Part shown: positions 37,125 to 53,687 of the stretch, piece by piece
Position numbering within the stretch: the stretch's first letter is position 1
How the letters are laid out: every line of letters begins with the position of its first letter
From: Jiangella aurantiaca
GTDB lineage: Bacteria > Actinomycetota > Actinomycetes > Jiangellales > Jiangellaceae
DNA: 59,972 bases
Assembly: GCF_004349105.1 (NCBI RefSeq)
Contig: NZ_SMLB01000035.1
Location: 1-59,972 of the forward strand
Reading direction: 5' to 3'
Notes under the pieces: generated by a model
Database searches by the model: none
What the model was told of the DNA's origin: nothing
Seen by the model: the letters and a program-made list of their open reading frames with translations, nothing else
Translations under genes and position numbers: made by a program

Positions 37125-37140
37125 TAGCCGTTCCCCACGT

Positions 37141-37244
37141 GTCGGGCCTTGCACGACGTCCTCGCAATCCCTGCGTGCCTTCCGCTCCGGACCGACTCGT
37201 GGGGACCTTCGGCTCCCAGTCGCCGTCGGTGTGCAAGGCTCTCC
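37141..37244 (-). promoter_or_regulatory. 105-bp element, copy D (diverged)
   Basis: In the direction of the gene it precedes, this copy has end GAGCCTTGCAC, central GCCGAAGGTCCC and end GTGCAAGGCCCGAC. The two ends are complementary. It aligns along its length with copies A-C, but both ends carry matching substitutions (CTTGCAC/GTGCAAG instead of CATGCAAA/TTTGCATG), so pairing is preserved. It ends 16 bases upstream of the membrane protein start at 37124. Confidence 0.65.
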
Positions 37245-37376
37245 ACAGGCCGGACTCTACCGACCCGGGTACGACCGGAACCGACCGTTCCACCAGCGGA
37301 TGGTTCCCGCGTCGTCCGGGTACCATCCGGGTCTGTCGCGGTTCGCCGTGACGTCGTCGGCCCATGAGGAGGAGCG

Positions 37377-37853
37377 GTGACCGAGCAGCGCTACCGGAGG
37401 GACGAGGACCAGGCCGACCGCTACGACCGGCACTGGAACGAGCTGCTCCAGGAACTGCGGATCGCCCAGACCGGCGTGCAGATCCTGTTCGCCTTCCTGC
37501 TGACCATCGCGTTCACTTCGCCGTTCCGCGACTCCGACGAGTTCACCCACGACGTGTTCGCGGTGACGATCGTCGTCGCGGCGATGTCCATGGCGCTGCT
37601 GATCGCGCCCGTGTCGTTCCACCGGATCGTGTTCCGGAAGCGGATCCGCGACAAAATGATCCCGATGGCTTCCAAGATGACCGCCGGTGGTCTGTTCCTG
37701 CTGATGCTCGCCGTGTGCGGCGGGCTGCTCCTCGCGCTCGACGTCGTGCTGGCCCGCTGGCTGGCGATCGTCGTCAGCGGAACCGCGCTGCTGTGGTTCG
37801 TCACGTTCTGGTACGTCATCCCGGGCCGGGTGCGGGCGCGGAGCACGTCTTGA
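37377..37853 (+). CDS. DUF6328 family membrane protein
   Basis: The 158-residue protein has a charged N-terminus (YDRHWNELLQELRIAQTGVQ) and four predicted transmembrane helices. These occur as two hairpins separated by HRIVFRKRIRDKMIPMASKM. This is the layout of the actinobacterial DUF6328 family, which has no known function. GTG at 37377 follows GAGGAGGAG at good spacing. The stop overlaps the TTG start of the NUDIX gene. It is divergent from the membrane protein at 36054, with element D and a partly palindromic stretch (about 37258-37330) between them. Confidence 0.85.
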   Translation: MTEQRYRRDEDQADRYDRHWNELLQELRIAQTGVQILFAFLLTIAFTSPFRDSDEFTHDVFAVTIVVAAMSMALLIAPVSFHRIVFRKRIRDKMIPMASKMTAGGLFLLMLAVCGGLLLALDVVLARWLAIVVSGTALLWFVTFWYVIPGRVRARSTS

Positions 37854-38725
37854 CCCTCGTCCACCACCGGCACGACGGCGACGGCTGGGTCGACTGCGCC
37901 TGCGGGCAGCGGCACTGGGGCCGGTTCGGCGCGGCCGGGTTGCTGGTGGTCGACGACGAGCGCGGCGTGCTGCTGCAGCACCGGGCGCACTGGAGCCACC
38001 ACGGCGGCACCTGGGGCATGCCTGGCGGCGCGCGATCGTCGGCGGAGACGGCCGTCGATGCGGCGCTGCGCGAGGCCGCCGAGGAGGCCGCCGTCCCGCC
38101 CGACGCCGTCCGGCCCAGCCACGCCTGGGTCGAGGACCACGGCACGTGGTCCTACACCACGATCGTCGCGCGCCCCGTCCGGCCGGTGGTCGCCCGGGCC
38201 GCCGACCCGGAGAGCCTGGACATCACCTGGATCGCCCTCGACGAGGTCGCGTCGCTGCCGCTGCTGCCGGCATTCGGCGCGCTGTGGCCGCGCATCCACG
38301 CGGCGGCGCCGTCCGACCTGGTGCTGGTGGTCGACGCCGCCAACGTGGTGGGCTCGCGCCCGGACGGCTGGTGGCGCGACCGCGCCGGCGCGACCGTCCG
38401 GCTCCGCGACGAACTGGGCCTGCTGGCGCCGGTTCCCGCGACGTCGCTCGGGCTGCCGGCGACGCAGTGGTGGCCGCGGATCGTGCTGGTCACGGAGGGC
38501 CGGGCACGCGGCATCACCTCGCTGGACGGCGTCACGGTGATCGACGCTCCCGGCAGCGGCGACGACGCCGTCGCGGCGGCCGTCGCGGCCGCGGTGACCG
38601 ATCGGCCGCAGGACTACGTCGTCGCGGTGACGGCGGACCGGGAGCTGCGGTCCCGCGTCGACGCCGCCGGCGGCCGGAACCTGGGCCCGTCAGCGCTGTT
38701 CGAGATCACCCACCGCGGCGACTGA
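37850..38725 (+). CDS. NUDIX hydrolase fused to NYN/YacP-like domain
   Basis: The 291-residue protein has a NUDIX domain in its first half (about 28-140), with box GGARSSAETAVDAALREAAE followed by EAAV. It fits GX5EX7REUXEEXGU except for the final glycine. The second half (about 155-290) has LVLVVDAANVVGSRPDGWW, APGSGDDAV and AVTADRELRSRV, matching the NYN/PIN nuclease fold of YacP-like RNases. A nucleotide-processing role combining both activities is possible but unproven. The start is TTG at 37850, coupled to the DUF6328 stop as TTGA. Confidence 0.82.
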   Translation: MTLVHHRHDGDGWVDCACGQRHWGRFGAAGLLVVDDERGVLLQHRAHWSHHGGTWGMPGGARSSAETAVDAALREAAEEAAVPPDAVRPSHAWVEDHGTWSYTTIVARPVRPVVARAADPESLDITWIALDEVASLPLLPAFGALWPRIHAAAPSDLVLVVDAANVVGSRPDGWWRDRAGATVRLRDELGLLAPVPATSLGLPATQWWPRIVLVTEGRARGITSLDGVTVIDAPGSGDDAVAAAVAAAVTDRPQDYVVAVTADRELRSRVDAAGGRNLGPSALFEITHRGD

Positions 38726-38746
38726 CGGCGCCGGCCGGGCCGTGGC

Positions 38747-39607
38747 TCAGGCGGACTTGCGCTTCGCGGCGGTCTTCTTCGCCGTCTTCTTCGCGGGAGC
38801 CGGCTTCTCCTCGGCCTTGCCCGCCGCTCGGTTCTGCTTGGCCTCCTCGACGCTGCGGCGCAGGGCGTCCATGAGGTCGACGACCTTGCCCTCGGCCGGC
38901 TCGGCCTCCGGCGGCGTGACCACCTCGGCGCCTTCGGCCTTCGCGTTGACGACCTCGAGCAGTGCCTCGCGGTACTCGTCGTGGTACTCGTCGGGGTCGA
39001 AGTCGCCGGACAGGGTGTCGATGTAGGACTCGGCCATCGCCATCTCCTGCTTGCGGACCTCGATGTCCTCGCCCAGGAAGTCGAACTCGGGCTTGCGGAT
39101 CTCGTCGGGCCACAGCATGGTCTGCACGATCAGCACGCCCTCGAACGAGCGCAGCACCGCCAGCCGCTCCTTGTTGCGCAGCGCCACCTTGACGACGCCG
39201 ACCCGGCCGGACCGCTCCAGCGAGTCGCGCAGCAGCGCGTACGGCTTGGTGTCGCCGGTGGGCTCGGCGTAGTAGGCGCGGTTCAGCGACGTGGGATCGA
39301 TCTGCGAGAACGGCACGAACCCGAGCACCTCGACCGCCCGCGACGAGGTGATGGGGAGGTCCTCGAAGTCCTCGTCGGTGAGCACGACCATCTGGCCGCC
39401 GGGCAGCTCATAGCCCTTGGCGATGTCGGCGTAGGCCACCTCGTGCCCGCCGGCCTCGCACACGCGCTTGTACCGGATGCGCCCGCCGTCGGCGGCGTGC
39501 ACCTGCCGGAAGCTGACGTCCTTCTCCTGGGTGGCCGACACCAGCCGGACCGGGATCGACACCAGCCCGAACGAGATCGAGCCCTTCCAGACCGTCTGCA
39601 CAGGCAT
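38747..39607 (-). CDS. ku: Non-homologous end-joining protein Ku
   Basis: The 286-residue bacterial Ku begins VQTVWKGSISFGLVSIPVRL, contains the beta-barrel ring that binds DNA ends (VCEAGGHEV, YELPGGQMVVLTDEDFEDLP, EKPYALLRDSL-like TKPYALLRDSLERSG), and ends in a lysine/alanine-rich tail (KKTAKKTAAKRKSA). Such extended basic tails occur in actinobacterial Ku proteins and help DNA binding. No ligase LigD gene is adjacent, so the partner must be elsewhere. The ATG at 39607 is the only sensible start. Confidence 0.97.
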   Translation of the reverse strand: MPVQTVWKGSISFGLVSIPVRLVSATQEKDVSFRQVHAADGGRIRYKRVCEAGGHEVAYADIAKGYELPGGQMVVLTDEDFEDLPITSSRAVEVLGFVPFSQIDPTSLNRAYYAEPTGDTKPYALLRDSLERSGRVGVVKVALRNKERLAVLRSFEGVLIVQTMLWPDEIRKPEFDFLGEDIEVRKQEMAMAESYIDTLSGDFDPDEYHDEYREALLEVVNAKAEGAEVVTPPEAEPAEGKVVDLMDALRRSVEEAKQNRAAGKAEEKPAPAKKTAKKTAAKRKSA

Positions 39608-39722
39608 GTTCCACTCCGTCCGCCGGCACCTCGTCGTCGTGCCCGTTCCAAGCCTAGTGTGGCTCGTCACCGCCCCGGCGCGCCTCCTGGGCCCCGCCCT
39701 GCTCGCGTGTCACCCTCGAAAC

Positions 39723-39932
39723 ATGAGGGCAAGACGAGATCTCAACGTCGCGGCGCCCGAGCTGCTCATCGGCTCCCTCACGGCCTGGTGCGGCGAGTGC
39801 GACGCGGAGACCGAGTTCGACAAGGTCCCCGGCGGGATGGGCGTGGAGTACGCGTGCCGGGACTGCTCGGCGGCCGTGTTCAACGGCGACCTGCCGCTGA
39901 TCGAGTCGATCTTCCAGCCGGTCGCCGTCTAG
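39723..39932 (+). CDS. Small CxxC zinc-ribbon-like protein
   Basis: The 69-residue protein has two cysteine pairs, WCGECDAET (residues 23-26) and ACRDCSAAV (45-48), spaced as in small zinc ribbons. The rest is mildly acidic, with no transmembrane segment. The start at 39723 is supported by coding-like third positions. It is convergent with the multicopper oxidase gene (12-base gap). Function is unknown; it could bind zinc or copper. Confidence 0.65.
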   Translation: MRARRDLNVAAPELLIGSLTAWCGECDAETEFDKVPGGMGVEYACRDCSAAVFNGDLPLIESIFQPVAV

Positions 39933-39944
39933 CGCGCGTCCCGG

Positions 39945-41492
39945 CTACGCGCCGGCGACGGTGAAGCTGAACATCATGCCACTGTGCATGTGTTCGGGGA
40001 TGTGGCAGTGCGCCATCCACAGCCCCGGATTCGTCACGTCGAACAGGATGTCGACGACCTGACCCGTGCGGACCAGCACGGTGTCCTTCCAGACGAGGTT
40101 GGGCTCGGCCACCTCGTCGCGGGCCAGGACGAGGAACCGGCCGGCGCCGTGCAGGTGGAACGGGTGGTGCATGGGGTGGTCGGAGTCCATCTCGTTGACC
40201 AGCCGGATCTTCACCCGGTCGCCGACGCGGAACCGCCAGTCGACGGTGTCGGCGTCGGTCCCCGCGGTTCGGTCGACGAACATCCAGTGCATGGTCTCGG
40301 CGGTGCTGCTCCGGTTCATCTCCGCCATCTCGTCTTCCCACTCGATGCCGTCGGAGACGGCGTGCCCGCCGGCACCGCCGTGGTCGCCGTGGCCGCCGTC
40401 ATCGCCCTGCCCGTGATGGCCGTGGTGATCGTGATGGCCGGCCGTGTGGTCCATCCGGGCGACCAGGGCGAGCACCTTGTCCGGCGGCGCGGTGAGCCAC
40501 GGTCCCAGCGTCTCGCGCTCGGCGGTCAGCTCGGGGTCGCGGCGCAGCACCTCGAACGCCTCCCCCGCCACGGACGCCACCGGCTCACCCACCACCGCCA
40601 CCGTGGCCAGCGGGTACGTGTGGTCGGGGGTGCGGTGCTCCAGGGTCAGCTCGCCGGGCTCGTCGGCCAGCACGTCCACGACCGCCCGCTCCGACGGCGC
40701 CAGTAGCACCTGTGTCACGAACTCGTCGTGCTCGACCCGGCCGCTGTCGCCGCCGACGAGCTTCATCCGGGCGCCGGGGAGGCGCAGGTCGAACACCCGG
40801 GCGCCGGCGGTGTTCGTCAGCCACAGCCGGACCACCTCCCCGGGCCGGGCTGCCAGCCGTGGGTGCGGCTCGCCACTGGTCAGGAAGACGTTGCCGAACC
40901 GGCCCATGGCCGCGTGGTTGGTCTCGCCCCGGCTGAACGGCACGACCCGGCCGTCGTCGCCGAGCAGCAGGTCGTCCACGGTGAGGACGAGGTCGCGATC
41001 GGCCGGCGGCCAGTAGTCCGCCTCCGCCGGGACGACCACGATGTTGCCGTACAGGCCCAGCTCCTGGGCGTAGTCCTCGCGGACGTGCGGGTGGTACCAG
41101 TACAGGCCGGGGTCGGGGAACTGGATGCGGTACGTGAAGCTGCCGCCGACGGGCACCGGCTCCTGCGTCTCGTGCGGCACGCCGTCGTAGCGGTTCTCCA
41201 GCCGCAGGCCGTGCCAGTGCACCGTGGTCTCGAGGTCGCCGTGGTTCGTGACGTTCACGACCAGCTCGCTGCCCTGCACGACCCGCAGCGTGGGGCCCGG
41301 AATCGAGCCGTTGTAGCCCAGCATCCGGACCGTTGCCTCGCCGAGACGCTTGGCCACCGGGGCGATCGTGAGGTCCAGCGTGTCGCCATCGGCGAGCTCC
41401 AGGAGCGCCGGCCGTCCCGCCTCCGGCAGCCCCGAAGGATCGGCCGGGAACTCACCGGACTGGTCGTGATGGTGGTGGTGATGCGTGTTCAT
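39945..41492 (-). CDS. Multicopper oxidase with natural N-terminal His tag and His-rich insert
   Basis: The 515-residue three-cupredoxin oxidase has all copper motifs: HWHG (about residue 92), WYHPHVR (about 132), HPMHHPFHLHG (about 440) and HCHIPEHMHSGM (about 493, with the type 1 Cys). It begins MNTHHHHHHDQ and has a second His-rich insert (DHTAGHHDHHGHHGQGDDGG, near 348), both likely metal-collecting. There is no signal peptide or Tat motif, unlike CueO/CopA, so it may be cytosolic or surface-associated by another route. It probably oxidises Cu(I) or phenolic/metal substrates. It is last of three co-directional genes. Confidence 0.92.
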   Translation of the reverse strand: MNTHHHHHHDQSGEFPADPSGLPEAGRPALLELADGDTLDLTIAPVAKRLGEATVRMLGYNGSIPGPTLRVVQGSELVVNVTNHGDLETTVHWHGLRLENRYDGVPHETQEPVPVGGSFTYRIQFPDPGLYWYHPHVREDYAQELGLYGNIVVVPAEADYWPPADRDLVLTVDDLLLGDDGRVVPFSRGETNHAAMGRFGNVFLTSGEPHPRLAARPGEVVRLWLTNTAGARVFDLRLPGARMKLVGGDSGRVEHDEFVTQVLLAPSERAVVDVLADEPGELTLEHRTPDHTYPLATVAVVGEPVASVAGEAFEVLRRDPELTAERETLGPWLTAPPDKVLALVARMDHTAGHHDHHGHHGQGDDGGHGDHGGAGGHAVSDGIEWEDEMAEMNRSSTAETMHWMFVDRTAGTDADTVDWRFRVGDRVKIRLVNEMDSDHPMHHPFHLHGAGRFLVLARDEVAEPNLVWKDTVLVRTGQVVDILFDVTNPGLWMAHCHIPEHMHSGMMFSFTVAGA

Positions 41493-41505
41493 GGTGCGCC
41501 GCCCG

Positions 41506-42108
41506 TCAGCCGGTGATGGCCACGACGATCATAGCCGCGGCGAGGAGGGTGTCGAGGACCACGCAGAACTCGGCCAGCGAGCGCACGACGACCCGGTTCG
41601 TGCGGTGGTGCCACACGTCCCACGCCGCGTGCCCGAGCAGCCCCACGGCCACGAGGTAGGCGCCGGCATCGCCGCCGACGAGCACGGTGACGGCAGCGGC
41701 CGCGCCGAACCCGGCCATGGCGAGCGACTGGAGGGGCAGCCCGTGGGCCGGCGTCGCGCGGCGGCGAAGCAGCCCGTACGCGGCGAGCGGGACGGCGGCG
41801 CCGAGCAGCACCCAGGTCCCGTCCACGCCGCCGGCGCCGGTGACGCCGGCCAGGATCTCGGCCGCGGTGATGACCGCGAAGGTGCCGAGGAACAACGGCC
41901 ACGCCGACGCCGCCCGTCCGAGGGCGGCGGCGCCCAGGTAGACGATGCCGGAGGCGGCCAGGATCGGCGCGAGGTCGGCGCCGAAGGACAGGTCCGACGC
42001 CACGAACGCGGCCAGGGCGAGACCGGCGGCGGCCGGCCAGCGGCGCACGACGCCGCGGAGCGAGCGAGCGACGGGTCGCGGGCGGGCGACCGGAACGGTG
42101 GTGGTCAT
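41506..42108 (-). CDS. Polytopic membrane protein of the copper-oxidase operon
   Basis: The 200-residue protein has six predicted transmembrane helices and an Arg-rich N-terminus. GHAAWDVWHH near residue 165 places histidines and tryptophans at a helix end, which could bind metal or heme. GGAGGC supports the ATG at 42108. It lies 13 bases before the oxidase gene and 36 bases after the other small membrane protein. Function is unknown; context suggests metal handling. Confidence 0.75.
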   Translation of the reverse strand: MTTTVPVARPRPVARSLRGVVRRWPAAAGLALAAFVASDLSFGADLAPILAASGIVYLGAAALGRAASAWPLFLGTFAVITAAEILAGVTGAGGVDGTWVLLGAAVPLAAYGLLRRRATPAHGLPLQSLAMAGFGAAAAVTVLVGGDAGAYLVAVGLLGHAAWDVWHHRTNRVVVRSLAEFCVVLDTLLAAAMIVVAITG

Positions 42109-42144
42109 GAGAAGCCTCCTCGGGTGGCGGGTGCTGACCAGCGT

Positions 42145-42588
42145 TCAGTGGTGGGTGTGCGTCAGGTACTCGTCGCGGCGGCGGAGCATGACCGCCAGCA
42201 TCAGCGGGAACATCGCGACGTGCTCCACGATCATCGCCGTGCCGGCGCTGATGACGTTCAGCAGGACCAGCGCGGTCGCGATGAGCGCGGGGACGAGCAT
42301 CGCGGCGCTCATCTCCACCGTGGCCGCCCAGCCGTGACGGCGGACGCGCATCCACGCGGCCATGGAGACCGTCATGGTCAGCCCCATCTCGACGAGGACG
42401 ACCTCGGGGTAGCGGTCGATGGAGTAGGCGACGCCGCCGGCGGCGAGGGCCGCGCGCAGCGCGCCGCCGAGGACGAACATGCCGGCCAGCATCGCGACGA
42501 CCATCTCCACGTAGTGGCCGGCGAAGCGGGTCCAGCGACGGGTGGCCGGGCGACGCAGCCCGGCGGTCTCGGTCATGACAGGCGACAT
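42145..42588 (-). CDS. Small polytopic membrane protein, His-ending
   Basis: The 147-residue protein has four predicted transmembrane helices, with the motif GHYVEMVVAMLAGMFVLGG in the first and VEMSAAMLVPALI in the third. Glu and Met residues inside helices hint at metal coordination. It ends in THTHH. GGGAGGACG sets the ATG at 42588. It is the first gene of the unit leading to the multicopper oxidase. No family was recognised, although Met-rich helices of this kind occur in copper-related membrane proteins. Confidence 0.75.
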   Translation of the reverse strand: MSPVMTETAGLRRPATRRWTRFAGHYVEMVVAMLAGMFVLGGALRAALAAGGVAYSIDRYPEVVLVEMGLTMTVSMAAWMRVRRHGWAATVEMSAAMLVPALIATALVLLNVISAGTAMIVEHVAMFPLMLAVMLRRRDEYLTHTHH

Positions 42589-42697
42589 CTCGTCCTCCCG
42601 GTGGTGTGTGCTGACGTCGACGAGTCTGCTTTGACCTGCGACGACGCAACCAGTGCGCGCGGTCACGACCTGAGGGTGGGAGCTGCACCCGGTGGAC

Positions 42698-42710
42698 GTG
42701 CATACTGCAC
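42698..42710. promoter_or_regulatory. GTGCA-N3-TGCAC palindrome, copy 1
   Basis: GTGCATACTGCAC lies between the divergent copper-oxidase operon and the kinase gene, 19 bases before element A. The same palindrome, with one different centre base and the same flank GAC, lies beyond element B at 45398. The pairing with two of the four elements suggests an operator of a shared regulator. Confidence 0.5.
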
Positions 42711-42728
42711 ATCTCGAACCGGGACCCC

Positions 42729-42834
42729 GGAGGGTTATGCAAAACCGACGGGCGATGGGGGCCGAAGGTCCCCCTGAGCCCTCGGTCCAGGGCGGATGTC
42801 GACTGGAGAGTTCGTGATCTTTGCATCACCCGAC
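42729..42834 (+). promoter_or_regulatory. 105-bp element, copy A
   Basis: This 106-bp element has ends GGGTTATGCAAAACC and CTTTGCATCACCCGAC, which are complementary except for one position, and a central palindrome GGGGGCCGAAGGTCCCCC. It is closely similar to copies B and C over its full length. It ends 29 bases before the kinase ATG at 42864, and a TAGGCT -10 lies at 42841, so the gene-proximal end (TTGCAT) may serve as the -35. Confidence 0.75.
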
Positions 42835-42863
42835 TCTGATTAGGCTCTGCATGGAGGCCGCCG

Positions 42864-44918
42864 ATGGACGCTGGTGGGCGCATCGCGCTGACACCTGGGC
42901 TGGCCGCCGCGTTCCCGGTGGCGTTCCTCCTCCTGACCCTGCTCACGCGGCTCGGCAACGCGGTGTACTGGAGCGGGCCCGGCGGCGGCGTGGTGCTGAC
43001 CGGGCTGTTCGTCCTGCCGCTGCTGTACACCATGCCGTGGGGCCGGGCGCTGTGGGCACGCCACCGCGGCCCGCTGCTGGCGGTGCAGGCGGCCCTGACG
43101 TACGCGCCGCTGCTGGTCTTCGGCCAGGACTGGATCACCATCGCACCCGCTCTGCTCGCCGGGCTGCTGCTCCTGACGGTGGCGGCGCCGGCCTCGTGGC
43201 TGCTGTTCGGCGGCGTGATCGCGCTCGAGGCGGTGCGCGTGGCCGTCCTGGGCGTCCCGTGGCCCGGGAACGACGCCGCGATCGTCATCTGGATGCTGGT
43301 CGCACCTGCCAACAGCGGGGTGGCGTTCTTCGGCCTGGTCCGGCTGGCCGACCTGGTCACGGCGTTGCACGCGGCGCGGACGGAGCTGGCCGTGCTGGCG
43401 GTCGGCGAGGAGCGGCGCCGCTCCACCGAGCTGCTGCGCGCGGCGGTCGGCGACCATCTCGAGAGGGTCGCCGGCCGGGCTCGCGACGCCCTGGGCGCGC
43501 TCGCCCGCAGCCCCGACGTGGCGCGCGAGCAGCTCGCCGCCGCCGGACGCAGCGCGCGCCGCGCGCTGGAGCAGGTGCGGACGGCGGTGGCCGCCGACCG
43601 GCGCGGTCCACCGGCCGACGACGCCGGCGGGGAGGTCGACCAGCACCGGCACGGCGTCGACGTCGCACCGCGCCTGGCCCGGCTGACGCTGGCGGTGGTG
43701 CTCGCCGCCTACGCCGCGATTCTGATGACGAACGTCCTGGTCAGCGGCGGCCGGACGGTGGCGATCGGCGCGGCGGCGGCCTCCATCGCCCTGGTGGCGG
43801 CGCTGCAGCTGCACCACTCGTTCCGGTGGCGGGCGGGACAGCCGCCGCGCGGCTGGCGCTGGACGCTCGCCGTCCAGACGCTGCTGCCGTTCGCGTGGTT
43901 CCCGGCCTACGACTGGAACGTCCTCACGCTGGCCGGGCCGGCCGCCGGCTCGGCGCTGCTGCTGCTCCCCCGCCGGTGGGCGTGGACGGCGGCCGCGGCG
44001 ATCCTGGCCGGCGTCGCCGTCGCGTGGAGCCTGCCGGTGCTCGACCTGTACTACGGCGCCGGCAACCGCGCCGTCTACGTCGTGGCCACGGACAACGCCA
44101 CCGTCCTCTACCAGCTGGGCGCGGCGGCGACGGGCGCCATTGTCGTCTACGGGCTCTCCCGCCTCCCCGACCTCGCCGAGCAGGTCGCCGCCGCCCGGCG
44201 CGAGCTGGCCCGGGCCGCCGTCGAGCGCGAACGGCAGCGGGTCGCCCAGGACACCCACGACCTGCTCGGGCTGGGTCTGTCCGCGGTCGCGCTCAAGAGC
44301 GACCTGGCCGGGCGGCTCGTCGGCCGCGACGAGGACCGGGCCCGCGCCGAGCTGGACGCGCTGCTGCGGCTCACGGCCCGCGCCCGCGCCGACATCCGGG
44401 CCGTCACCACCGGTGAGGGTGACCTGTCCGTGTCCGCCGAGCTGGCGGCCGCCCGCGACGTGCTCGCCTCCGCCGGCGTCGCCACCGAGCTGCGCGGGAC
44501 GGCGGCCGGTGCCGCCCTGCCGCCGCCGGTCGACGGCGTGCTGGCCACCGTGCTGCGGGAAGGCGTCACGAACGTGCTGCGCCACAGCGCAGCGACGCGG
44601 TGCGTCATCGAGCTGACCACCGACGGTGGCAGCGTCGGGCTGAGGGTGCGCAACGACGGCGTCCGCGCCAACCCGCCCGAGCCCACGGGAAGGCAGCGGC
44701 CCGGCGGGAACGGCCTGCCCAACCTGTCCGCCCGGGTCGCCGCGCTCGGCGGCCGGTTGACCACGCACGCGGACGGCGGACACTTCGAGCTGGCCGCCAC
44801 GGTGCCGCTGGCGGACGCCTCAGACGTGCGGCGTGGCGAAGACCCGCCCGCCGCGGGCGACCGTGCGCACAGCCTCGACGAGGTCGTCGGCGGGACCGTC
44901 CTTGACCAGGAACCCTGA
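42864..44918 (+). CDS. Sensor histidine kinase with duplicated membrane/DHp module
   Basis: The 684-residue protein has two consecutive sensor units. Unit 1 (residues 10-245) has about five membrane helices and a coiled segment AARTELAVLAVGEERRRSTE that aligns with a HisKA_3 dimerisation helix but lacks the phosphorylatable His. Unit 2 has membrane helices (270-432), AARRELARAAVERERQRVAQ then DTHDLLG with His465, and an ATPase domain (LREGVTNVLRHS, GNGLPNLSARVAALGG). The first unit is thus a degenerate duplicate. The last 30 or so residues are unusual because the gene overlaps the convergent receiver gene by 99 bases. GGAGG before 42864 sets the start. Confidence 0.88.
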   Translation: MDAGGRIALTPGLAAAFPVAFLLLTLLTRLGNAVYWSGPGGGVVLTGLFVLPLLYTMPWGRALWARHRGPLLAVQAALTYAPLLVFGQDWITIAPALLAGLLLLTVAAPASWLLFGGVIALEAVRVAVLGVPWPGNDAAIVIWMLVAPANSGVAFFGLVRLADLVTALHAARTELAVLAVGEERRRSTELLRAAVGDHLERVAGRARDALGALARSPDVAREQLAAAGRSARRALEQVRTAVAADRRGPPADDAGGEVDQHRHGVDVAPRLARLTLAVVLAAYAAILMTNVLVSGGRTVAIGAAAASIALVAALQLHHSFRWRAGQPPRGWRWTLAVQTLLPFAWFPAYDWNVLTLAGPAAGSALLLLPRRWAWTAAAAILAGVAVAWSLPVLDLYYGAGNRAVYVVATDNATVLYQLGAAATGAIVVYGLSRLPDLAEQVAAARRELARAAVERERQRVAQDTHDLLGLGLSAVALKSDLAGRLVGRDEDRARAELDALLRLTARARADIRAVTTGEGDLSVSAELAAARDVLASAGVATELRGTAAGAALPPPVDGVLATVLREGVTNVLRHSAATRCVIELTTDGGSVGLRVRNDGVRANPPEPTGRQRPGGNGLPNLSARVAALGGRLTTHADGGHFELAATVPLADASDVRRGEDPPAAGDRAHSLDEVVGGTVLDQEP

Positions 44919-45215
44919 CACGCCCGCGGCCCGCGCCCGGTCGAGGCCGTCCGGCCGGACCAGGCCGGTGAGGATCAGCACTCGGCACGCGGGCAGCCGC
45001 TCGTGCAGCTCGGCGGCCGCGGTGAGACCGTCGACGCCGGGCAGGTCGACGTCGAGCAGCGCCACGTCGGGCCGGCAGTCCAGCGCGGCGGGCACGATCC
45101 GGTCGCCGGCGGCCACCGCGGCGGCGACGGCCAGATCGTCCTCCAGCTGCAGGAGGGCGACCAGCGTGTCGCGGAGGATGTCGACGTCCTCGGCGACCAG
45201 GACCCGGATGAGCAT
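44820..45215 (-). CDS. Receiver-only response regulator (LuxR domain lost)
   Basis: The 131-residue protein is a complete receiver domain: VLVAEDVDILRDTL, phosphorylated Asp in ALLDVDLPG, LILTG, Lys in GFLVKDGP. It ends at residue 131, where its neighbour at 45426 continues into a LuxR DNA-binding domain. The two are clearly paralogous, about two thirds identical by eye. The stop lies inside the convergent kinase gene. Loss of the output domain by a deletion joining the two gene ends is likely. It could act as a phosphate sink or partner of the kinase. ATG 45215 is chosen; ATGs at 45233 and 45245 are in frame. Confidence 0.85.
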   Translation of the reverse strand: MLIRVLVAEDVDILRDTLVALLQLEDDLAVAAAVAAGDRIVPAALDCRPDVALLDVDLPGVDGLTAAAELHERLPACRVLILTGLVRPDGLDRARAAGVSGFLVKDGPADDLVEAVRTVARGGRVFATPHV

Positions 45216-45235
45216 GGTCACATTCCCATTCATTG

Positions 45236-45344
45236 GTCGGGTCATGCAAAGATCACGAACGCTCTCCAGTCGACATTCGCCCTGGACCGAAGACTCAGGG
45301 GGACCTTCGGCCCCCCATCGTCCGTCGGTTTTGCATGACCCTCC
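45236..45344 (-). promoter_or_regulatory. 105-bp element, copy B
   Basis: This 109-bp copy has perfectly complementary 12-base ends GGGTCATGCAAA and TTTGCATGACCC and a central GGGGGGCCGAAGGTCCCCC. Read in gene direction it ends 20 bases before the receiver-only gene start. Copies A and B are in inverted orientation and flank the kinase and receiver genes. Confidence 0.75.
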
Positions 45345-45397
45345 CAGGCTCGGCCGGGCGCCGTCACCCCGGCCAGTGCCGCCGGCACGACCTCACC

Positions 45398-45410
45398 GTG
45401 CAGAATGCAC
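45398..45410. promoter_or_regulatory. GTGCA-N3-TGCAC palindrome, copy 2
   Basis: GTGCAGAATGCAC lies 53 bases outside element B, between it and the end of the NarL-type gene. Read in gene direction it is GACGTGCATTCTGCAC, against GACGTGCATACTGCAC at 42698, so 15 of 16 bases agree. It is a candidate regulator-binding site common to the promoters of the kinase and the receiver-only gene. Confidence 0.5.
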
Positions 45411-45425
45411 GTCGATCCAGGCCGG

Positions 45426-46031
45426 TCAGAGCCAGCCGGCCTCGCGGGCGATGCGGGCGGCGTCCACCCGGTTGCGCGCCCCCAGCTTGGTGACCGCCGA
45501 CGCCAGGTAGTTCCGGACCGTGCCGTAGGACAGGTACATCTCCGCGGCGATCTCGGCCGCCGAGGCGCCGGCCGCGTGCCGCTCCAGCACCTCGGCCTCG
45601 CGGGGCGAGAGCGGGTTCTCCGTCGCCTCCAACGCCGCCAGCGCCACCGCGGGGTCGACCACCCGCTCCCCCACGGCCACCCGCCGGACCGCGTCGACCA
45701 GCTCCGGCGCCGGCGCGTCCTTGACCATGAACCCGGACGCGTGGGCGGCGAGCGCGCGGCGCAGGACGCCCGGACGGCCCAGGCCGGTCAGGATCAGCGT
45801 CTGGCACTCCGGCAGCCGCTCGTGCAGCTCGGCGGCCGCGGTGATCCCGTCGACGCCGGGTAGATCGATGTCCAGCACCGCGACGTCCGGGCGGTGCTCG
45901 AGGGCGGCCGGCACGATCTCGTCACCGGCACCTACCTGGGCGACGACCTCGAGGTCGTCCTCCAGGTCCAGCAGCGCCACCAGGGTGTCGCGCAGGATCC
46001 GCATGTCCTCGGCCACCAGAATCCGGACCAT
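45426..46031 (-). CDS. NarL/LuxR family response regulator
   Basis: The 201-residue regulator has a receiver (ILVAEDMRILRDTLVALLDL, Asp in AVLDIDLPG, Lys in GFMVKDAP) and a C-terminal LuxR helix-turn-helix (NPLSPREAEVLERHAAGASA then AAEIAAEMYLSYGTVRNYLA). It belongs to the DesR-like group. It is the last gene downstream of the double ABC exporter (22 bases after the second ATPase gene), so it may be expressed with it. The most probable kinase is the one at 42864. Its receiver paralogue is at 44820. Confidence 0.94.
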   Translation of the reverse strand: MVRILVAEDMRILRDTLVALLDLEDDLEVVAQVGAGDEIVPAALEHRPDVAVLDIDLPGVDGITAAAELHERLPECQTLILTGLGRPGVLRRALAAHASGFMVKDAPAPELVDAVRRVAVGERVVDPAVALAALEATENPLSPREAEVLERHAAGASAAEIAAEMYLSYGTVRNYLASAVTKLGARNRVDAARIAREAGWL

Positions 46032-46052
46032 CGGTGCCTCCAGCCGGCGGCG

Positions 46053-47658: not shown

Positions 47659-50348
47659 GTCTCGTCACCCATTCGTAGCATCCCCGCCGGCGTCAGCCGC
47701 CGTCCCGTCAGCACCGACACCACCACCGCCACGCCGACCACCAGCACGAACCCCAGCGTCACCGCACCCAGCAGGCCGAGCGGCAGGTGCACCGCCGGCT
47801 GCTCGCCGCCGCCGGTCAGCGACCGCAGGTCGACGCCGGACAGCACCGCCCACGGCAGCACCGCGCCCAGCAGCAGCCCGGTGACCAGCGACACCGCCGC
47901 CACCGGCGCGGCCTCCCAGACGACCAGGCCCTCGCCCTGCCGGCCGGACAGCCCCAGCGTGCGCAGCTGCGAGAGCAGCCGGCCCCGTGACGGCGCGCCC
48001 ACCACCATGGTGAGCACGACGGCGGCAGCGCACAACAACCCGGTGAGCGCGATAGCGCCGACGATGGCCCGCGCGGTGCCGTCGTTCACCGGCCCGCGAA
48101 GGTCCGCGATCGCCGACGCGGGCGTCGTCACCGTCCGCTCACCCAGCTCGGCGGCGACGGCGGACGCGCTGCCGCCGGAGCCGAGGTCGACCAGGGTGAG
48201 CCGCGGCGGGATGATGGTGACGCCGGCGTCTTCGAGCACACCGCGGTCGGCCAGCATCCACTGGCTGCCCGACGTGAGCCCCGGGATCGAGTCGGCCGTC
48301 CCGGCCACCACGGCGTCCAGCCGCTCACTCAGCGACAGCGTGCCGGTGGCGCCCTCGTCGACGACCCCGTCCGCGACCAGCAGCGGGATCGCGCCGTCCG
48401 GCCCCGGCGTGGTCAGGCCGGACGGCAGCGGGTCCAGCGCGGACCCGCCGGCGCGCACCTGGTCGAGCGCGGCGACGTCGACGACGTAGAGGGGGACGCG
48501 GTTGTCGATGGGGCCGACCTTGAACAGCGTCGGCCCGGGCGTGACGACGGCCGCGACGGCGTCGACGCCCGGTACGTCCCGGACGGCGGCCAGCTCGGCC
48601 TCGGTGAGTGGCGCGCCGGACACCCGGACGTCAGCACCGACCTGCCGCCACGCGGTCTGCTCGATGCCCCGCTCGGTGGTGGACCACACGACGGTCGAGA
48701 ACGCGGCGATCGACATGCCGACGACCAGCGCGAGCATCGGGACGAACCCGGCGACGGGATCGCGCACCGCCCGGGCGGTCCCGAGATAGGCGACGGTGCC
48801 GCGGCGGCCGCCGAGCACCCGGCCCAGCGTCGCCATCGGCCGCGGGTACAGCCGCATGACCAGCACACTCACGGCCAGCGCGAGCAGCAGCGGCGTCGCG
48901 GCGGTGAGCGGGTCGATCCCGGCGCCGCCGGCGTCCAGGCCGCGGGCGTTGAGCGCGAGGCCGGCCGCTGCGGCCGCGCCGACGGCCAGCCCCTCGACCA
49001 GCTTGCGGGCCCGCGACGGGCGGCCCAGCCCGAGGTCGCGGCGGACGGCGCGCAGCCCTTTCGGGCGCGCGGCCAGCGGCAGCAGCACCGCCGGCGCCAG
49101 CCCCACCACCAGCGGCAGCAGCAGGCCGGCGGCCCCGCCGGCGCCGTCGGCGAACCGGCCGACGACGACCGTGGCCAGCGCGGCGGCCGGCAGCCCGAGC
49201 AGCACACCCTCGGTGGCCGTCAGCAGCCGCAGCTGCAGCGGCGACGCGCCCCGGGCTCCGATGAGCGCCAGCGCGGACCGGCGCCGCTCGACCATCAGCC
49301 GGGCCGCCAGCGCCAGCACCGCCAGGGCGACGCCGAGCGGCCCGGCCGCGACGATCGCCATGACCGCCTGCGCGCTGTCGTGCCGCTCGGCCACCCGGTC
49401 CAGGACGTCGATGGAGCCGGTGGTGAGGATCGGGCTGAACGGCAGCTGCCCGGGGTCCGCGTCGATCACCGGGGCGGCCGCGACGAACCGGCTCAGCGCG
49501 TCGCGCAGCGGCACCGCGACGTCCGCCCGCGCCGCCGAGACGTCGACCGGGTACCAGAGCCGGGTCTCCATCGGCGACCCGAGCGCCGGCGCCAGCGCCG
49601 CCCAGGAGTCGGGATCCACGTACGCCGCGACCGTGAGCACCCGGCCGAGGTTCCAGTCGTCGAAGACCTCCGGCTGGAGCGCGGCCCGGTGGTGCGCCCA
49701 GACCGGCGCGGCGGCGTCCAGCGGCTCATACACGCCGGACAGCCGGTACACCAGGTCCGGCCCGGTGGCCGGCACGCCCGCCGGCGACTCCGGGGCGGTG
49801 ACGTCGCCGACCGCCCAGCCGAGCTCCTCGGCCGACGTCCGCGCCAGCATCACGTCGACGACGAGCGGCTCCCCCGGCGCCGCGGGCTCGGTCGCCGGCG
49901 CCGGCGACTCACCCTCGACGACACGGACGGTCTCGGCCCAGTACGGGTCGGCGGTCGGCAGCAGGTCGGTCGCGCTCTCCGTCGCGCGCACGTCGACCCT
50001 GGCCGGCGGCGCGGTGACGACGAACCGGCCCGGCCCGGTCGCGTCCCGCACGGCCGCCGGCGCGTCGTCGCGGATCGACGCGAGCGCCTGGTCGAACGGC
50101 CCCCAGACGTCGCCGTCGGCGCCCATCGGCGGCGGCTGACCGGCCACCGACGTCACGTCCCGCAGCGTCGCCGGCATGCGTGCCATCTCCGCGTGCAGGT
50201 CGTCGGTGAACACCTGCTCGGCCAGCCGCGGCAGCGCTGCCGCCACCAGCGCCAGCACGAACACCACGCCGACGACGACCAGCGCCGCGGCGCGGTCGGC
50301 GAGGAACTGCCGGCGGAACAGCCGCCCGGTCCCCAACCCCCGGCTCAC
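47655..50348 (-). CDS. FtsX/MacB-like ABC permease 1
   Basis: The 897-residue permease has an N-terminal transmembrane helix (ALVVVGVVFVLALVAAALP), a large extracytoplasmic domain (about 40-330) and a first helix group (about 330-520). A second extracytoplasmic domain (about 560-760) and three C-terminal helices follow (LTGLLCAAAVVLTMVVGA, AAPVAAVSLVTGLLLGAVLP, LLGAVTLGFVLVVGVAVVVS). This 10-helix double-FtsX form is typical of actinobacterial export or mechanotransmission systems. GGGAAGG precedes the GTG at 50348. The substrate is unknown; candidates include lipids, peptides or lipoproteins. Confidence 0.92.
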   Translation of the reverse strand: MSRGLGTGRLFRRQFLADRAAALVVVGVVFVLALVAAALPRLAEQVFTDDLHAEMARMPATLRDVTSVAGQPPPMGADGDVWGPFDQALASIRDDAPAAVRDATGPGRFVVTAPPARVDVRATESATDLLPTADPYWAETVRVVEGESPAPATEPAAPGEPLVVDVMLARTSAEELGWAVGDVTAPESPAGVPATGPDLVYRLSGVYEPLDAAAPVWAHHRAALQPEVFDDWNLGRVLTVAAYVDPDSWAALAPALGSPMETRLWYPVDVSAARADVAVPLRDALSRFVAAAPVIDADPGQLPFSPILTTGSIDVLDRVAERHDSAQAVMAIVAAGPLGVALAVLALAARLMVERRRSALALIGARGASPLQLRLLTATEGVLLGLPAAALATVVVGRFADGAGGAAGLLLPLVVGLAPAVLLPLAARPKGLRAVRRDLGLGRPSRARKLVEGLAVGAAAAAGLALNARGLDAGGAGIDPLTAATPLLLALAVSVLVMRLYPRPMATLGRVLGGRRGTVAYLGTARAVRDPVAGFVPMLALVVGMSIAAFSTVVWSTTERGIEQTAWRQVGADVRVSGAPLTEAELAAVRDVPGVDAVAAVVTPGPTLFKVGPIDNRVPLYVVDVAALDQVRAGGSALDPLPSGLTTPGPDGAIPLLVADGVVDEGATGTLSLSERLDAVVAGTADSIPGLTSGSQWMLADRGVLEDAGVTIIPPRLTLVDLGSGGSASAVAAELGERTVTTPASAIADLRGPVNDGTARAIVGAIALTGLLCAAAVVLTMVVGAPSRGRLLSQLRTLGLSGRQGEGLVVWEAAPVAAVSLVTGLLLGAVLPWAVLSGVDLRSLTGGGEQPAVHLPLGLLGAVTLGFVLVVGVAVVVSVLTGRRLTPAGMLRMGDET

Positions 50349-50399
50349 CGTCGCTCTGCCTTCCCGGTCGCGCTCCGAGGCTCGTTCGCTCCGCGGGAG

Positions 50400-50436
50400 C
50401 CTCCACCCGGCTCGGCGCAGCCGAACCGGGTGGAGG
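50400..50436. other. Strong hairpin between two permease genes
   Basis: The arms CCTCCACCCGG (400-410) and TCGGC (412-416) pair with GCCGA (420-424) and CCGGGTGGAGG (426-436) around a 3-base loop, leaving one unpaired C/A position. It lies in the 109-base gap between two co-transcribed permease genes, where a full terminator would be unexpected. It may attenuate downstream expression or protect mRNA. Confidence 0.75.
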
Positions 50437-50457
50437 CGACCACTCCGCTCACTCGCC

Positions 50458-53400
50458 TCATCGCCGCTCCTCTCCGGGCACCGCTACTGCCGCGTCATGC
50501 CCGGCCCGCGACGCGTGCAGCAGCGCGACCGCGGCGACCACCCCGGCCAGCACCACCCCGAACACCGCCAGAGCGCCGCGGCTGGCGCCGCCGACCGGGT
50601 CCAGCGCCTGCGGCACCCCGGAGGTCGCGGCCCGGGCCAGCACCGTCACCGTCAGGGCAGCGACCACCAGCCCGCCCACCGCGCCCGCCACCATCGCCAG
50701 CAGCCCCATTCCGGCCTGCTCGATCCGCCGCGACCGGGCTTGCTCCGATGGCGCCACGCCGACGACCCGCAGGACGGCCAGCTCGCCGCGCCGCTGCCGC
50801 TGCAGCGTCGCCGCCGACGCGACCGCGCCGATCGCCGTCAGCACGACCGCCGCCGCGGCCACCGACCAGAACGCCGGCACCACGTGCCGCGCCAGCCCGT
50901 GGTCCAGTAATCCGGACCGGACCGTCTCGCGGTCGGTCACCTGGGCCGCGCCGGCCAGCCCGGCCTTCTCGACGGCCGCGGCCAGCCCGGCGGTGTCACC
51001 GCCGTCCGCGCTCAGCCACACCTCGGTGATGCGCTGCGGCCGGTCCGCGACGCGCAGCAGCGTCGCGGTGACGCTCGGCAGGTCGGCGACGAATGCGACC
51101 GGGTCGGCCACGCCCGGCAGCACCGGCACCGTGTCGACCACCCGGGCGTCCACCCGGGCGCCGACGACGTGCAGGCTGACCGGGTCGCCGACCTGCAGAC
51201 CGAAGTGGTCCAGCGCGGCCTGTGAGGCGACGACGGGGACCGGCTCGTCCGCGGCGTCCGGCGGGGTCAGCCGTACGGTCGCGCCGGACGCGGCCGCGAC
51301 GACCGCCGCCGACAGCGGCGACGCCGTGCCGGGTTCGGCGGCCTCGATCCGGTAGCCGGCCTCGGCCTGCGGCGTCCACGGCGCGACGTCGCCCAGCGGC
51401 AGGTCGGTCGTGGCGCCGGACCCGTCGATGGCATGCAGCGCCGTCACGGCCGCCTCGGACGGCCCGGCCACCGCGACGCTGAGGTCGGCGGCGACGACGG
51501 TGCCGAACCCGGCCGGCACGGAGGCGACGCCGTCGTCGACGACGGCCTGTGCCAGCACGCCGTCGGCGTCGGCGACCAGCAGCGTGACCGCGGAGACGCC
51601 GGTCGCGTCGACCTCGAGCCGCTCGGTGCCTTCGGGCAGCTCCAGGCCGGTCAACGCCGGCCGCTCCGGCGCCACGTCGTCGGCCACCCGGCCGGCGGGG
51701 AACACGTCGTCGCGGGCCTCGATCATGCCGCGCAGCCCATCGGCGGGCATGGCCAGCAGCGCGGTGCTCTCATCGCCGATGCGGGCGCCGGTGGACAGAA
51801 CGCCGACGGCATCGCTCGCGCCCTCGATGTCGTTGTACGGCCCGGCGGACTCCGCCGGGCGGGCCGGGGTGAGCGGCCCGGCGCGATCGAACGTCACCCG
51901 CACGTCGGCGCCGGAGTGGACGTCCGCGAGGTCCTCCTGCAGGCCGGTCCAGGTCGCCGAGTACGACGCCGCGAGCACCCCAGCGCCCGCCGTCACCACC
52001 ACCAATACGACCACCGACGCGTACACCGGCAGCCGGCGAGTCACCTGCCAGGCCGGCAGCAGCAGCCCGAGCCGGCGGCGGCCGGCCAGCGCCCGCTCGG
52101 CCAGCGCCAGTGGGAACGGGACGGCGAGCAACGCAAGTGCGGCGCAGGCCAGCAGCGCCAGCGCCGGCCCTGGTGTGGCAAGAAGGTCCGCACTGCTGTT
52201 TCCGGAGGCGCCGTCGCCTGCCCCGTAGCGGCGCAGCTGCCAGATCGCGACAGCGGCGGCGATCAGCGCGACGGCGGCGAAGGTCCAGCCGATCGCCCCG
52301 GTGGCGCGGCGGCTGGTGAACGCGACGGTGTCCTCGACCCGGCGGCGGGCGGTCGCGGCGGCGCCTACGACCAGCAGCGCGAGCGTGCCGGCGGCGACAC
52401 CCGCGGCGCACCACGCGGCCACCCCGGCGTCGACGGCCGGGCCGCCGCCCGCGCGCAGCGCGAGCAGCGTCGCCGCGCCACCGAGCGCCGCAGCCGGCAC
52501 GACCACGGCCACCGACTCCAGGACCGACCACCACACCAGCTGCCCGCCGGACAGCCCGCGCGAGCGCAGCAGCGTCGTCTCGACCTCGCGGACGACGCCG
52601 AGCAGCCGGGCCACCTGGGCGCCGGTGACGATCGCGACGGCCACCAGCACGACCAGCGGGACCGCGGAGACGCTGGTGCCGCGGGCGACGTCGGCGTCCA
52701 GCGAGGCGGCGGTGGCGGCGAGCTCGCCGCTGGTCGCGACGCCGCGGACGTCGATCCGCTCGTCGCCCTCCAGCGCGCCGGGCAGTCCCGGCAGCGCATC
52801 GGCCAGCGCGGCGACCTGCCCGGGGGTGATCTCACCGACCTGCGGCATGATCCGCCAGCGCACCCGCGGCGACGCCTCGACGGCGGTCAGCGCGTCCTCG
52901 GTGACCACGAACGGGCCGTACGCGGAGCCGTCGACGCCGGCCACCTCGATCGGCTCGCCGAACCAGAACGGGTCGGCCGGGTCGGCGGGCAGCCAAGTGC
53001 CGGTGACCAGCACCCGGGTCTCGCCGACGGTGATCTCGTCGCCGGCGGAGAGGCCCAGCGCCTCGGCAGCGGTGGCGTGCAGCGCCGCCTCGGCGACGGC
53101 ATCCGTGCCGCCTGCGGCCGGCCAGGCGCCGCCGGTCAGCTCCGCGTGCTCCTCCAGGCGCTCATAGGCGGTGAGGACGCCGCGGGCCTCCTCGTCGCTG
53201 CCGGGCACGGTCAGGGCGTCCTCGCCGCCGGCCAGGCTGCGGTACACCTCCAGCGGCGCGCCGCCGGACCGCGCGGCGACCTCCTCGCGGACGGCGCGGT
53301 GCTGGGCCTCGGGGTCAGGGCCGAGCCGCGTGACGGCCTGCACGGCGGCCTCCGCCGGCGGCGCGTCGCGCAGCGCCTCACGGACGCCGTCCTGGCTGGC

Positions 53401-53508
53401 TACGACCAGGTAGCCGACCAGCCCGGTGGCGACGGCGGCCACCACGAACACCCACGCGGCCACCGTCGCGACGACGGCGGCATGGGCACGCGCGCGCTTG
53501 ACCCGCAT
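50458..53508 (-). CDS. FtsX/MacB-like ABC permease 2
   Basis: The 1016-residue permease has the same double-FtsX plan as its neighbour: a first helix (VVATVAAWVFVVAAVATGLV), large outer domains (about 35-280 and 510-870), a central set of helices (about 290-500) and three C-terminal helices (VVPAFWSVAAAAVVLTAIGA, AGMGLLAMVAGAVGGLVVAA, ALAVFGVVLAGVVAAVALLH). Sequence similarity to permease 1 is low, so the two probably form a heterodimer. ATG 53508 is chosen although no good Shine-Dalgarno is visible. Element C ends about 70 bases upstream, and it is the first gene of the exporter operon. Confidence 0.9.
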   Translation of the reverse strand: MRVKRARAHAAVVATVAAWVFVVAAVATGLVGYLVVASQDGVREALRDAPPAEAAVQAVTRLGPDPEAQHRAVREEVAARSGGAPLEVYRSLAGGEDALTVPGSDEEARGVLTAYERLEEHAELTGGAWPAAGGTDAVAEAALHATAAEALGLSAGDEITVGETRVLVTGTWLPADPADPFWFGEPIEVAGVDGSAYGPFVVTEDALTAVEASPRVRWRIMPQVGEITPGQVAALADALPGLPGALEGDERIDVRGVATSGELAATAASLDADVARGTSVSAVPLVVLVAVAIVTGAQVARLLGVVREVETTLLRSRGLSGGQLVWWSVLESVAVVVPAAALGGAATLLALRAGGGPAVDAGVAAWCAAGVAAGTLALLVVGAAATARRRVEDTVAFTSRRATGAIGWTFAAVALIAAAVAIWQLRRYGAGDGASGNSSADLLATPGPALALLACAALALLAVPFPLALAERALAGRRRLGLLLPAWQVTRRLPVYASVVVLVVVTAGAGVLAASYSATWTGLQEDLADVHSGADVRVTFDRAGPLTPARPAESAGPYNDIEGASDAVGVLSTGARIGDESTALLAMPADGLRGMIEARDDVFPAGRVADDVAPERPALTGLELPEGTERLEVDATGVSAVTLLVADADGVLAQAVVDDGVASVPAGFGTVVAADLSVAVAGPSEAAVTALHAIDGSGATTDLPLGDVAPWTPQAEAGYRIEAAEPGTASPLSAAVVAAASGATVRLTPPDAADEPVPVVASQAALDHFGLQVGDPVSLHVVGARVDARVVDTVPVLPGVADPVAFVADLPSVTATLLRVADRPQRITEVWLSADGGDTAGLAAAVEKAGLAGAAQVTDRETVRSGLLDHGLARHVVPAFWSVAAAAVVLTAIGAVASAATLQRQRRGELAVLRVVGVAPSEQARSRRIEQAGMGLLAMVAGAVGGLVVAALTVTVLARAATSGVPQALDPVGGASRGALAVFGVVLAGVVAAVALLHASRAGHDAAVAVPGEERR

Positions 53509-53579
53509 CAGCCGCGTCCGCCGGCTCGGTAACCGTTTCCCCCACGCATGATCGGCACAGATTACCTTTAGCCTCAGAT

Positions 53580-53687
53580 GTCGGGCCATACAAAGATCAC
53601 GAACGCTCTCCGGTCGACTTACGCACTGGACCGGGGACTCAGGGGACCTCCGGCCCCCCATCGCCCGCCGGTTCTGCATGGCCCTCC
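53580..53687 (-). promoter_or_regulatory. 105-bp element, copy C (overlaps methyltransferase end)
   Basis: This 108-bp copy has ends GGGCCATGCAGA and TTTGTATGGCCC and centre GGGGGGCCGGAGGTCCCC. Compared with B, the change TCAT to CCAT in one end is matched by ATGA to ATGG in the other. About 49 bases of it encode the last residues of the methyltransferase. It precedes the exporter operon by about 70 bases; GGCTAAAG between them may contain the -10. Confidence 0.7.

Follow-up and report, generated by a model that had tools for sequence, protein, structure and literature searches.

The window analysed here, a stretch of 59,972 nucleotides (nt) from Jiangella aurantiaca (contig NZ_SMLB01000035.1, positions 1 to 59,972), contains four copies, A to D, of a repeat of about 105 nt. 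The copies are homologous end to end in a four-way alignment and lie where the first-pass annotation of this DNA had placed them. As also described there, each copy combines complementary ends with a central hairpin and points in the same direction as the next gene, and the conserved CCCGAC end precedes the start codon by 16 bases in D, 20 in B, 29 in A and 71 in C. What is the biological nature of this repeat? Its sequence variation and genomic positions indicate that it is probably a non-autonomous mobile element, similar to miniature inverted-repeat transposable elements (MITEs), that becomes a structured part of the mRNA after insertion.

Copies A, B and C belong to subfamily I, and copy D belongs to subfamily III. 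Copy A (42729..42834, + strand) is located 29 nt upstream of the start of a histidine kinase gene (42864..44918, +). Its closing-stem (P1) arms occupy 42732-42743 and 42820-42831, its central hairpin occupies 42757-42774, and its 3' tail (42835..42848, +) consists of 14 flanking nt that belong to the inserted unit, being gone along with A in the empty allele. Copy B (45236..45344, - strand; P1 arms 45341-45330 and 45250-45239, hairpin 45316-45298) leads a receiver-only response regulator open reading frame (ORF; 44820..45245, -) that was missed by the gene caller. The spacing given for copy B refers to the ATG inferred from homology with the sister genome G002, 20 nt past the element; the mechanical ORF start falls inside the element. 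Copy C (53580..53687, - strand) lies between a SpoU methylase gene (53639..54505, -) and a gene for an FtsX-like permease (50458..53508, -; a weak match under the Pfam cut-off), and the 14 flanking nt that form its 3' tail (53566..53579, -) belong to the inserted unit and are absent in 8 of 8 relatives. Copy C indeed enters a coding sequence, as first noted: it is inserted just ahead of the SpoU methylase stop codon and overlaps the 3' end of the gene, and the encoded C-terminus is 15 residues longer than in empty alleles. Copy D (37141..37244, - strand) follows a TAGAGT -10-like box and precedes a GTG start codon (37124), up to which its 3' tail (37125..37140, -) extends; the gene that it leads (36054..37124, -) has no Pfam match. 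Thus, of the downstream products initially proposed, the histidine kinase after A and the receiver-only regulator after B stand, the exporter permease after C is reduced to a weak FtsX likeness, and the membrane protein after D has no Pfam counterpart. A multicopper oxidase gene is found between copies D and A at window positions 39945-41492.

Size and distribution of the repeat family

A BLAST search with copy B found 12 places in its own genome at an E value of 3.8e-26 or better, including B itself, A and C. Three weaker places were accepted (C30:40867 at 8e-6, D at 4e-4 and C28:356 at only 0.10), and six further places at E > 2 were rejected. All 15 accepted places were later recovered by a covariance model, R1, which was built from 35 of 40 extracted copies (alignment A3); a second model, R2, was built from 57 copies of the own genome. 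The search of this and related genomes with a covariance model, proposed by the first-pass annotation, yielded dozens of copies per genome. R1 identified at least 57 copies in the own genome at E 3e-5 or better, with the next two at E > 1, and at least 63 copies in the complete sister genome G008 at E 2.8e-4 or better; both counts are lower bounds, given that 150 of 7647 and 150 of 8847 first-look candidates, respectively, were scored.

The family is concentrated in the relatives of J. aurantiaca. Copy B had BLAST matches in 11 of 40 genomes, its own included. Among 80 genomes, again including the own genome, R1 found a match at E 0.1 in 17, which comprise 10 genomes of the same genus (own included), four of the same family and three marginal cases from other families. 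At E 0.001, R2 found the element in 13 of 296 genomes of the class; these all belong to the family of the window and are spread over three genera. This search used strict filters and scored 13 candidates per genome, and weak or distant members could have escaped it. The same-genus genomes G004 and G009 gave no match with R1 (E 0.1) or R2 (E 0.001), and G009 contains a single weak 22-base match. A single genus thus includes genomes with no copy and genomes with more than 60. Marginal matches in G021, G048, G061 and G066 (E 0.007-0.095 with R1; E 0.0005-0.007 in a smaller search) are absent from the R2 list at E 0.001 and were not counted as members, and their rows remain in the mixed alignment A6.

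The repeat did not correspond to a catalogued family. Rfam 15 had no match in the window at the gathering score and, at E values up to 5, nothing at the element in six loci. Plasmids and phages queried with copy B and viral contigs queried with the exact 22-base core pattern gave no match. In mainly openly accessible papers on Jiangella repeats, Jiangella small RNA, and MITEs together with leaderless genes, no description of the element was recognised.

Some copies are arranged head to tail in tandem pairs with a spacer of 14-18 nt (L123:3015-3234, G008:C1:403750-403979, G008:C1:1922456-1922689, G008:C1:4006314-4006544 and G003:C1:3737328-3737559). At L123, the own genome has two copies in tandem, and the relative G001 has just one. 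Copies can also be locally dense: the G008 stretch L383 (G008:C1:1682500-1699500) holds four within about 12 kb of a region that looks housekeeping by eye, compared with a genome average of one per approximately 120 kb.

Fold and covariation of the sense strand

The predicted fold of the sense strand has three parts: the closing stem P1; stem P2-P3, which carries a GA/GA internal loop and a GRA hairpin; and the variable arm P4. The 57 own copies (alignment A4) have standard pairs in 93.2% of the paired cells, compared with 34-48% when the partners are slid by one to three columns, and both-sided changes occur in 239 cells vs 73 in shuffles. The 63 G008 copies (A5) behave in the same manner, with 92.8% paired and 244 both-sided changes vs 78. 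A4 and A5 were fitted to R1 and are biased toward its structure; plain MAFFT alignments, on which this structure had originally been drawn, have 92.1% of cells paired and both-sided changes in 70 cells vs 17. The P1 arms are paired in 96.2% of cells in the own copies, and P4 is poorly kept (68% in both the own and the G008 sets). The paired end changes singled out by the first-pass annotation are genuine in B and D, and the pairing in C is made partly through G-U. Covariation thus persists in larger alignments, where its absence was to have spoken against a structured RNA, and strongly supports the proposed selection for pairing.

The folding strand is the sense strand. A strand-symmetric motif of double-stranded DNA (dsDNA) should show no bias toward G-U over A-C. 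In the repeats, G-U cells outnumber A-C cells by 153 to 19 in the own copies (A4), 200 to 25 in G008 (A5) and 218 to 58 in A6. These cell counts are inflated by the shared ancestry of the copies; sign tests over columns give weaker evidence (p = 0.00016, 0.0025 and 0.008, respectively). The G-U excess suggests that the sense strand has been selected to fold as RNA or as single-stranded DNA. Individual copies vary in the strength of the predicted fold. RNA fold z-scores of the sense strand are -5.6 for B, -3.1 for C, -2.8 for A and just -1.3 for D, and the sense strand has a lower fold energy than the antisense strand in B (-58.2 vs -45.6 kcal/mol) and C (-55.0 vs -39.7 kcal/mol), with approximately equal energies in A. 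In the minimum-energy fold of copy B (45236-45344), which departs from the consensus, the P2 5' strand is in part paired to bases upstream of the P1 3' arm. Such an alternative fold may represent a two-state switch.

Compensation is also seen between copies that occupy the same site in different genomes. We compared the P1 and core pairs in 18 groups of occupied orthologous sites (22 comparisons, alignment A7; the site groups L104/L173 and L107/L314 are manual additions, and L046 and L047 are excluded). Both-sided changes kept the pair in 17 cases and left it unpaired in one or both members in five. These 22 both-sided pair changes compare with 6.8 expected with random partners, and 0 of 5000 permutations reached the observed number. 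Part of this orthologous compensation could also result from gene conversion among copies or from separate insertions at the same site.

Empty sites and subfamily-specific positions

The element is mobile. Its inserted unit measures approximately 120-127 nt; it reaches about 14 nt past the ends of the element, for the most part at the 3' side. Copy A is missing from Jiangella rhizosphaerae (L177) and from the G002 counterpart (L190), with an identical junction in both. Copy B is missing from G002 (L184), and copy C is missing from all eight aligned relatives, each time along with the 14 flanking nt. Copy D is missing from L177, L202, L205 and L203, where the empty site has a start of the leaderless type. 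A joined-flank search in five genomes covered the 52 other copies (all except the window four and L123:3139). Overall, 42 of the 57 own copies have at least one fetched relative that spans both flanks (8/12 in subfamily I, 7/8 in II, 11/15 in III, 12/17 in IV and 4/5 in V); most read as plain empty sites, a few relatives being longer than the joined flanks. At L112, the evidence for an empty site is weak, with three of four relatives fitting. In two relatives, that of L125 in G002 (L238) and that of L119 in G008 (L264), the tail at the 3' end of the element is left without the body, which looks like the loss of an earlier copy. A copy can also lie within a reading frame: a divergent copy at L135:12553-12661 lies within the N-terminal coding region of a solute-binding-lipoprotein-like gene, and approximately 126 nt, a multiple of three, are absent from three relatives by alignment.

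The repeat is short, geneless and mobile and carries terminal inverted repeats in the form of its P1 arms, in keeping with a MITE. The first-pass annotation had linked a MITE origin to random locations and target-site duplications. The insertions are confirmed by the empty sites; however, the locations are non-random, and target duplications are restricted to some sites. A perfect 15-nt duplication is present at L106 and a 7-nt duplication at L107, whereas C, L138 and the II sites show none.

The 57 own copies were sorted by eye into subfamilies I (12 copies), II (8), III (15), IV (17) and V (5). For 207 copies from all genomes, we used a sorting rule that requires GT ahead of III copies and assigned 58 copies to I, 25 to II, 31 to III and 23 to IV; the rule leaves four own III copies unsorted and places two own IV copies in I. 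The subfamilies differ in their preferred positions.

Subfamily III occupies sites that look leaderless when empty. A leaderless-type arrangement, TAnnnT followed after 5-8 nt by ATG or GTG, is found at 11/11 spanned III sites vs 0/31 for the other subfamilies when scored as present in at least half of the spanning relatives. Across all genomes, a TAnnnT box ends 5-11 nt upstream in 27/31 III copies, 1/58 I copies, 0/25 II copies, 1/23 IV copies and 10/70 unsorted copies. The cleanest case is L138, where 127 nt are inserted exactly between ...TCTGGAC and ATG without duplication. A Shine-Dalgarno-like word precedes the called start in 14/27 III copies vs 6/27 at a control place. A conserved leaderless peptide in III, whose frame would open with the GTG that begins the element's 5' end, initially looked attractive and was dropped; the three codon positions are equally variable (0.38, 0.38 and 0.39 bits in 42 copies), which argues that no peptide is conserved.

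Subfamily II is found at gene overlaps. All 25 copies are co-directional with the next gene, and in 19/25 the called start is placed either 10 nt within the element or 11 nt past it. At L130, L132, L121, L133 and L136, relatives have two genes that overlap by ATGA or GTGA, as judged by eye, and the element stands directly before the overlap; a co-directional called frame overlaps the element in 19/25 copies. AAGGAGG occurs shortly ahead of the P1 3' arm, which mostly contains ATG or GTG, in 5/8 own copies and 9/25 copies in total, and a Shine-Dalgarno-like word is present at the called start in 8/23 copies vs 2/23 at the control place. Subfamily IV favours gene 3' ends, with 15/17 own copies within 52 nt of one in either orientation vs 20/40 copies of the other subfamilies; at L106, the element lies in a terminator-like hairpin, and at L107, it lies at a stop codon. 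Subfamily I has a co-directional start 20-80 nt downstream in 32/58 copies, and the I copies at L143, L146 and L147 appear by eye to lie just upstream of a ribosome-binding site. A co-directional gene follows 30/31 III copies (the remaining one lacks a gene call), 25/25 II copies, 39/58 I copies, 15/23 IV copies and 57/70 unsorted copies.

Weighing of explanations and relation to known repeats

Explanations that invoke only structure or only mobility were compared with the combined reading. It is unlikely that the repeats form a true cis-regulatory RNA class, either riboswitch-like or a protein-bound leader, that serves a regulon and was spread by ordinary duplication. Such a class fits the conserved fold with its covariation, the compensation within orthologous sites and the narrow spacing to the start codon in subfamilies III and II. 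However, the envelope/signalling regulon put forward in the first-pass annotation is not supported by 20 further downstream genes (of 36 listed), whose products, including LigD polymerase, NIF3, a tRNA-editing domain, a RecQ-like helicase and an alcohol dehydrogenase, share no function; the regulon reading was dropped for this reason, and functionally related targets, as a riboswitch would have, were not found among these 20 proteins. Copies at gene 3' ends and in antisense orientation, the variation in copy number within the genus and the lack of an Rfam match also argue against it. The strand-specific G-U excess, the covariation inside the element and not just at its ends, and the site-level compensation make it quite unlikely, in turn, that the repeat is an ordinary DNA MITE of a DDE transposase, with ends kept alike by transposase binding and a functionless RNA fold. 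The placement of II and III and the sites without visible duplication (C, L138 and II) do not favour this view either, although it would readily explain the empty sites, the duplications at L106 and L107 and the CTAG-like bases seen by eye on both flanks of some IV copies. It is highly improbable that the repeat is a palindromic DNA operator bound by the regulator at 45426 or by a protein related to it: this regulator is a LuxR-type response regulator close to copies A and B, and the hairpin is a near-palindrome, but a dsDNA operator should not favour G-U over A-C, the end sequences change while pairing persists, and G002 retains the neighbouring genes without A and B.

Half of the observations would stay unexplained by a pure regulon, and half by a passive MITE. 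We favour a mobile element that functions as part of the mRNA; the two alternatives first proposed, a structured single strand and a mobile element, hold at the same time. Several findings weigh against this combination. The antisense strand of copy D folds slightly better than its sense strand, and among one-sided changes at orthologous sites, those that break a pair (33) are about as numerous as those that keep one (27). Shine-Dalgarno-like words at the called start are limited to 14/27 III and 8/23 II copies, 70/207 copies were left unsorted by the rule, and target duplications are inconsistent between sites. The next gene is faced the wrong way by 18/58 I and 8/23 IV copies, and thus not every copy can be a leader. 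Finally, a mobilising enzyme was not found with the Y1_Tnp and RVT_1 profiles, a search that did not include the DDE, IS110 and recombinase families. A Y1 transposase was detected in 0/12 same-genus genomes and 5/14 control genomes. A reverse transcriptase was detected in 1/12, namely G006 (L268, G006:C101:54964-55629), and in none of G000, G002 and G008, and it is possible that an enzyme has since been lost. No mobilising gene was recognised by eye in the first 40 residues of each ORF, without a profile search, in two G008 stretches and one G003 stretch rich in copies.

We propose that the element, presumably moved by an enzyme acting in trans, has inserted many times and that its subfamilies settle at distinct gene boundaries. 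Subfamily III lies downstream of the -10 box and upstream of the start codon in genes whose empty alleles have a leaderless look, which suggests a leaderless ancestry of these sites. Subfamily II lies at ATGA/GTGA start/stop overlaps inside operons, IV mostly beside gene 3' ends and I often 20-80 nt before a start. The inserted element is expected to be transcribed, to join the mRNA and to alter translation or stability; III copies would supply almost all of the 5' leader. Insertion of III thus probably gives genes seemingly without a leader a new structured 5' end, and the Shine-Dalgarno-like word in about half of the III copies would keep the gene translatable. Both selection, given few harmless places, and real targeting would fit the location of III at what looks like the +1 of leaderless genes.

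A bolder view, which we regard as doubtful, is that the element is a mobile leader RNA that recognises the punctuation of genes and not a DNA sequence, with the folded strand as the mobile form. The folded strand would be joined at the 5' ends of leaderless transcripts, or else in the open promoter bubble, as well as at start/stop junctions, and leaderless or coupled genes would repeatedly be turned into genes with a structured leader. If true, the element would define a new mobile-element class and offer leaderless genes a direct path to a leader. If the leaderless-to-leadered conversion suggested by all 11 spanned III sites is true at the RNA level, the origin of bacterial 5' leaders becomes directly testable.

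Small structured bacterial repeats have so far been read as either selfish DNA or RNA regulators. With its many copies and empty sites, its strand-specific covariation and its occurrence in sister species, the Jiangella family allows both roles to be tested in one system. REP/RAYT elements are dispersed hairpins like the Jiangella element; however, the Jiangella unit exceeds 100 nt, and its genus lacks a Y1 transposase match in the 12 genomes searched. According to the available text of one account (PMC10969869), the MITEs ERIC, BOX, RUP and QMITE2 are likewise short and geneless, with inverted ends and a stable predicted transcript fold, whereas the Jiangella element is GC-rich, has no consistent target duplication and resides at leaderless-type starts and ATGA/GTGA overlaps, and the Y1_Tnp and RVT_1 searches revealed no IS parent. 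The Rickettsia palindromic elements treated in the same text are small repeats that extend or enter reading frames, as do II, C and L135 here, but no conserved peptide is found in III, the sole subfamily examined for one. Stem-loop families (PMC2267715) are also among the nearest kinds. In the available portions of these sources and of PMC3446304, none of the bcr, ERIC/BOX/RUP, Rickettsia palindromic and stem-loop families is described at leaderless starts or ATGA overlaps. By description, the Bacillus cereus intergenic repeats bcr1-bcr18 (Kristoffersen et al. 2011; PMC3446304, available part) resemble the Jiangella family in being interspersed, with several families per genome that are MITE-like or structured. 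They are located in 5' UTRs (untranslated regions), 3' UTRs and operon gaps, and 50.9% and 40.0% of copies are in mRNA in two strains. In that account, bcr1-3 are named as MITE-like, and bcr10 and bcr18 are named separately as structure-conserved, whereas the Jiangella repeats join mobility, strand-specific covariation and subfamily-specific gene-boundary positions in one family.

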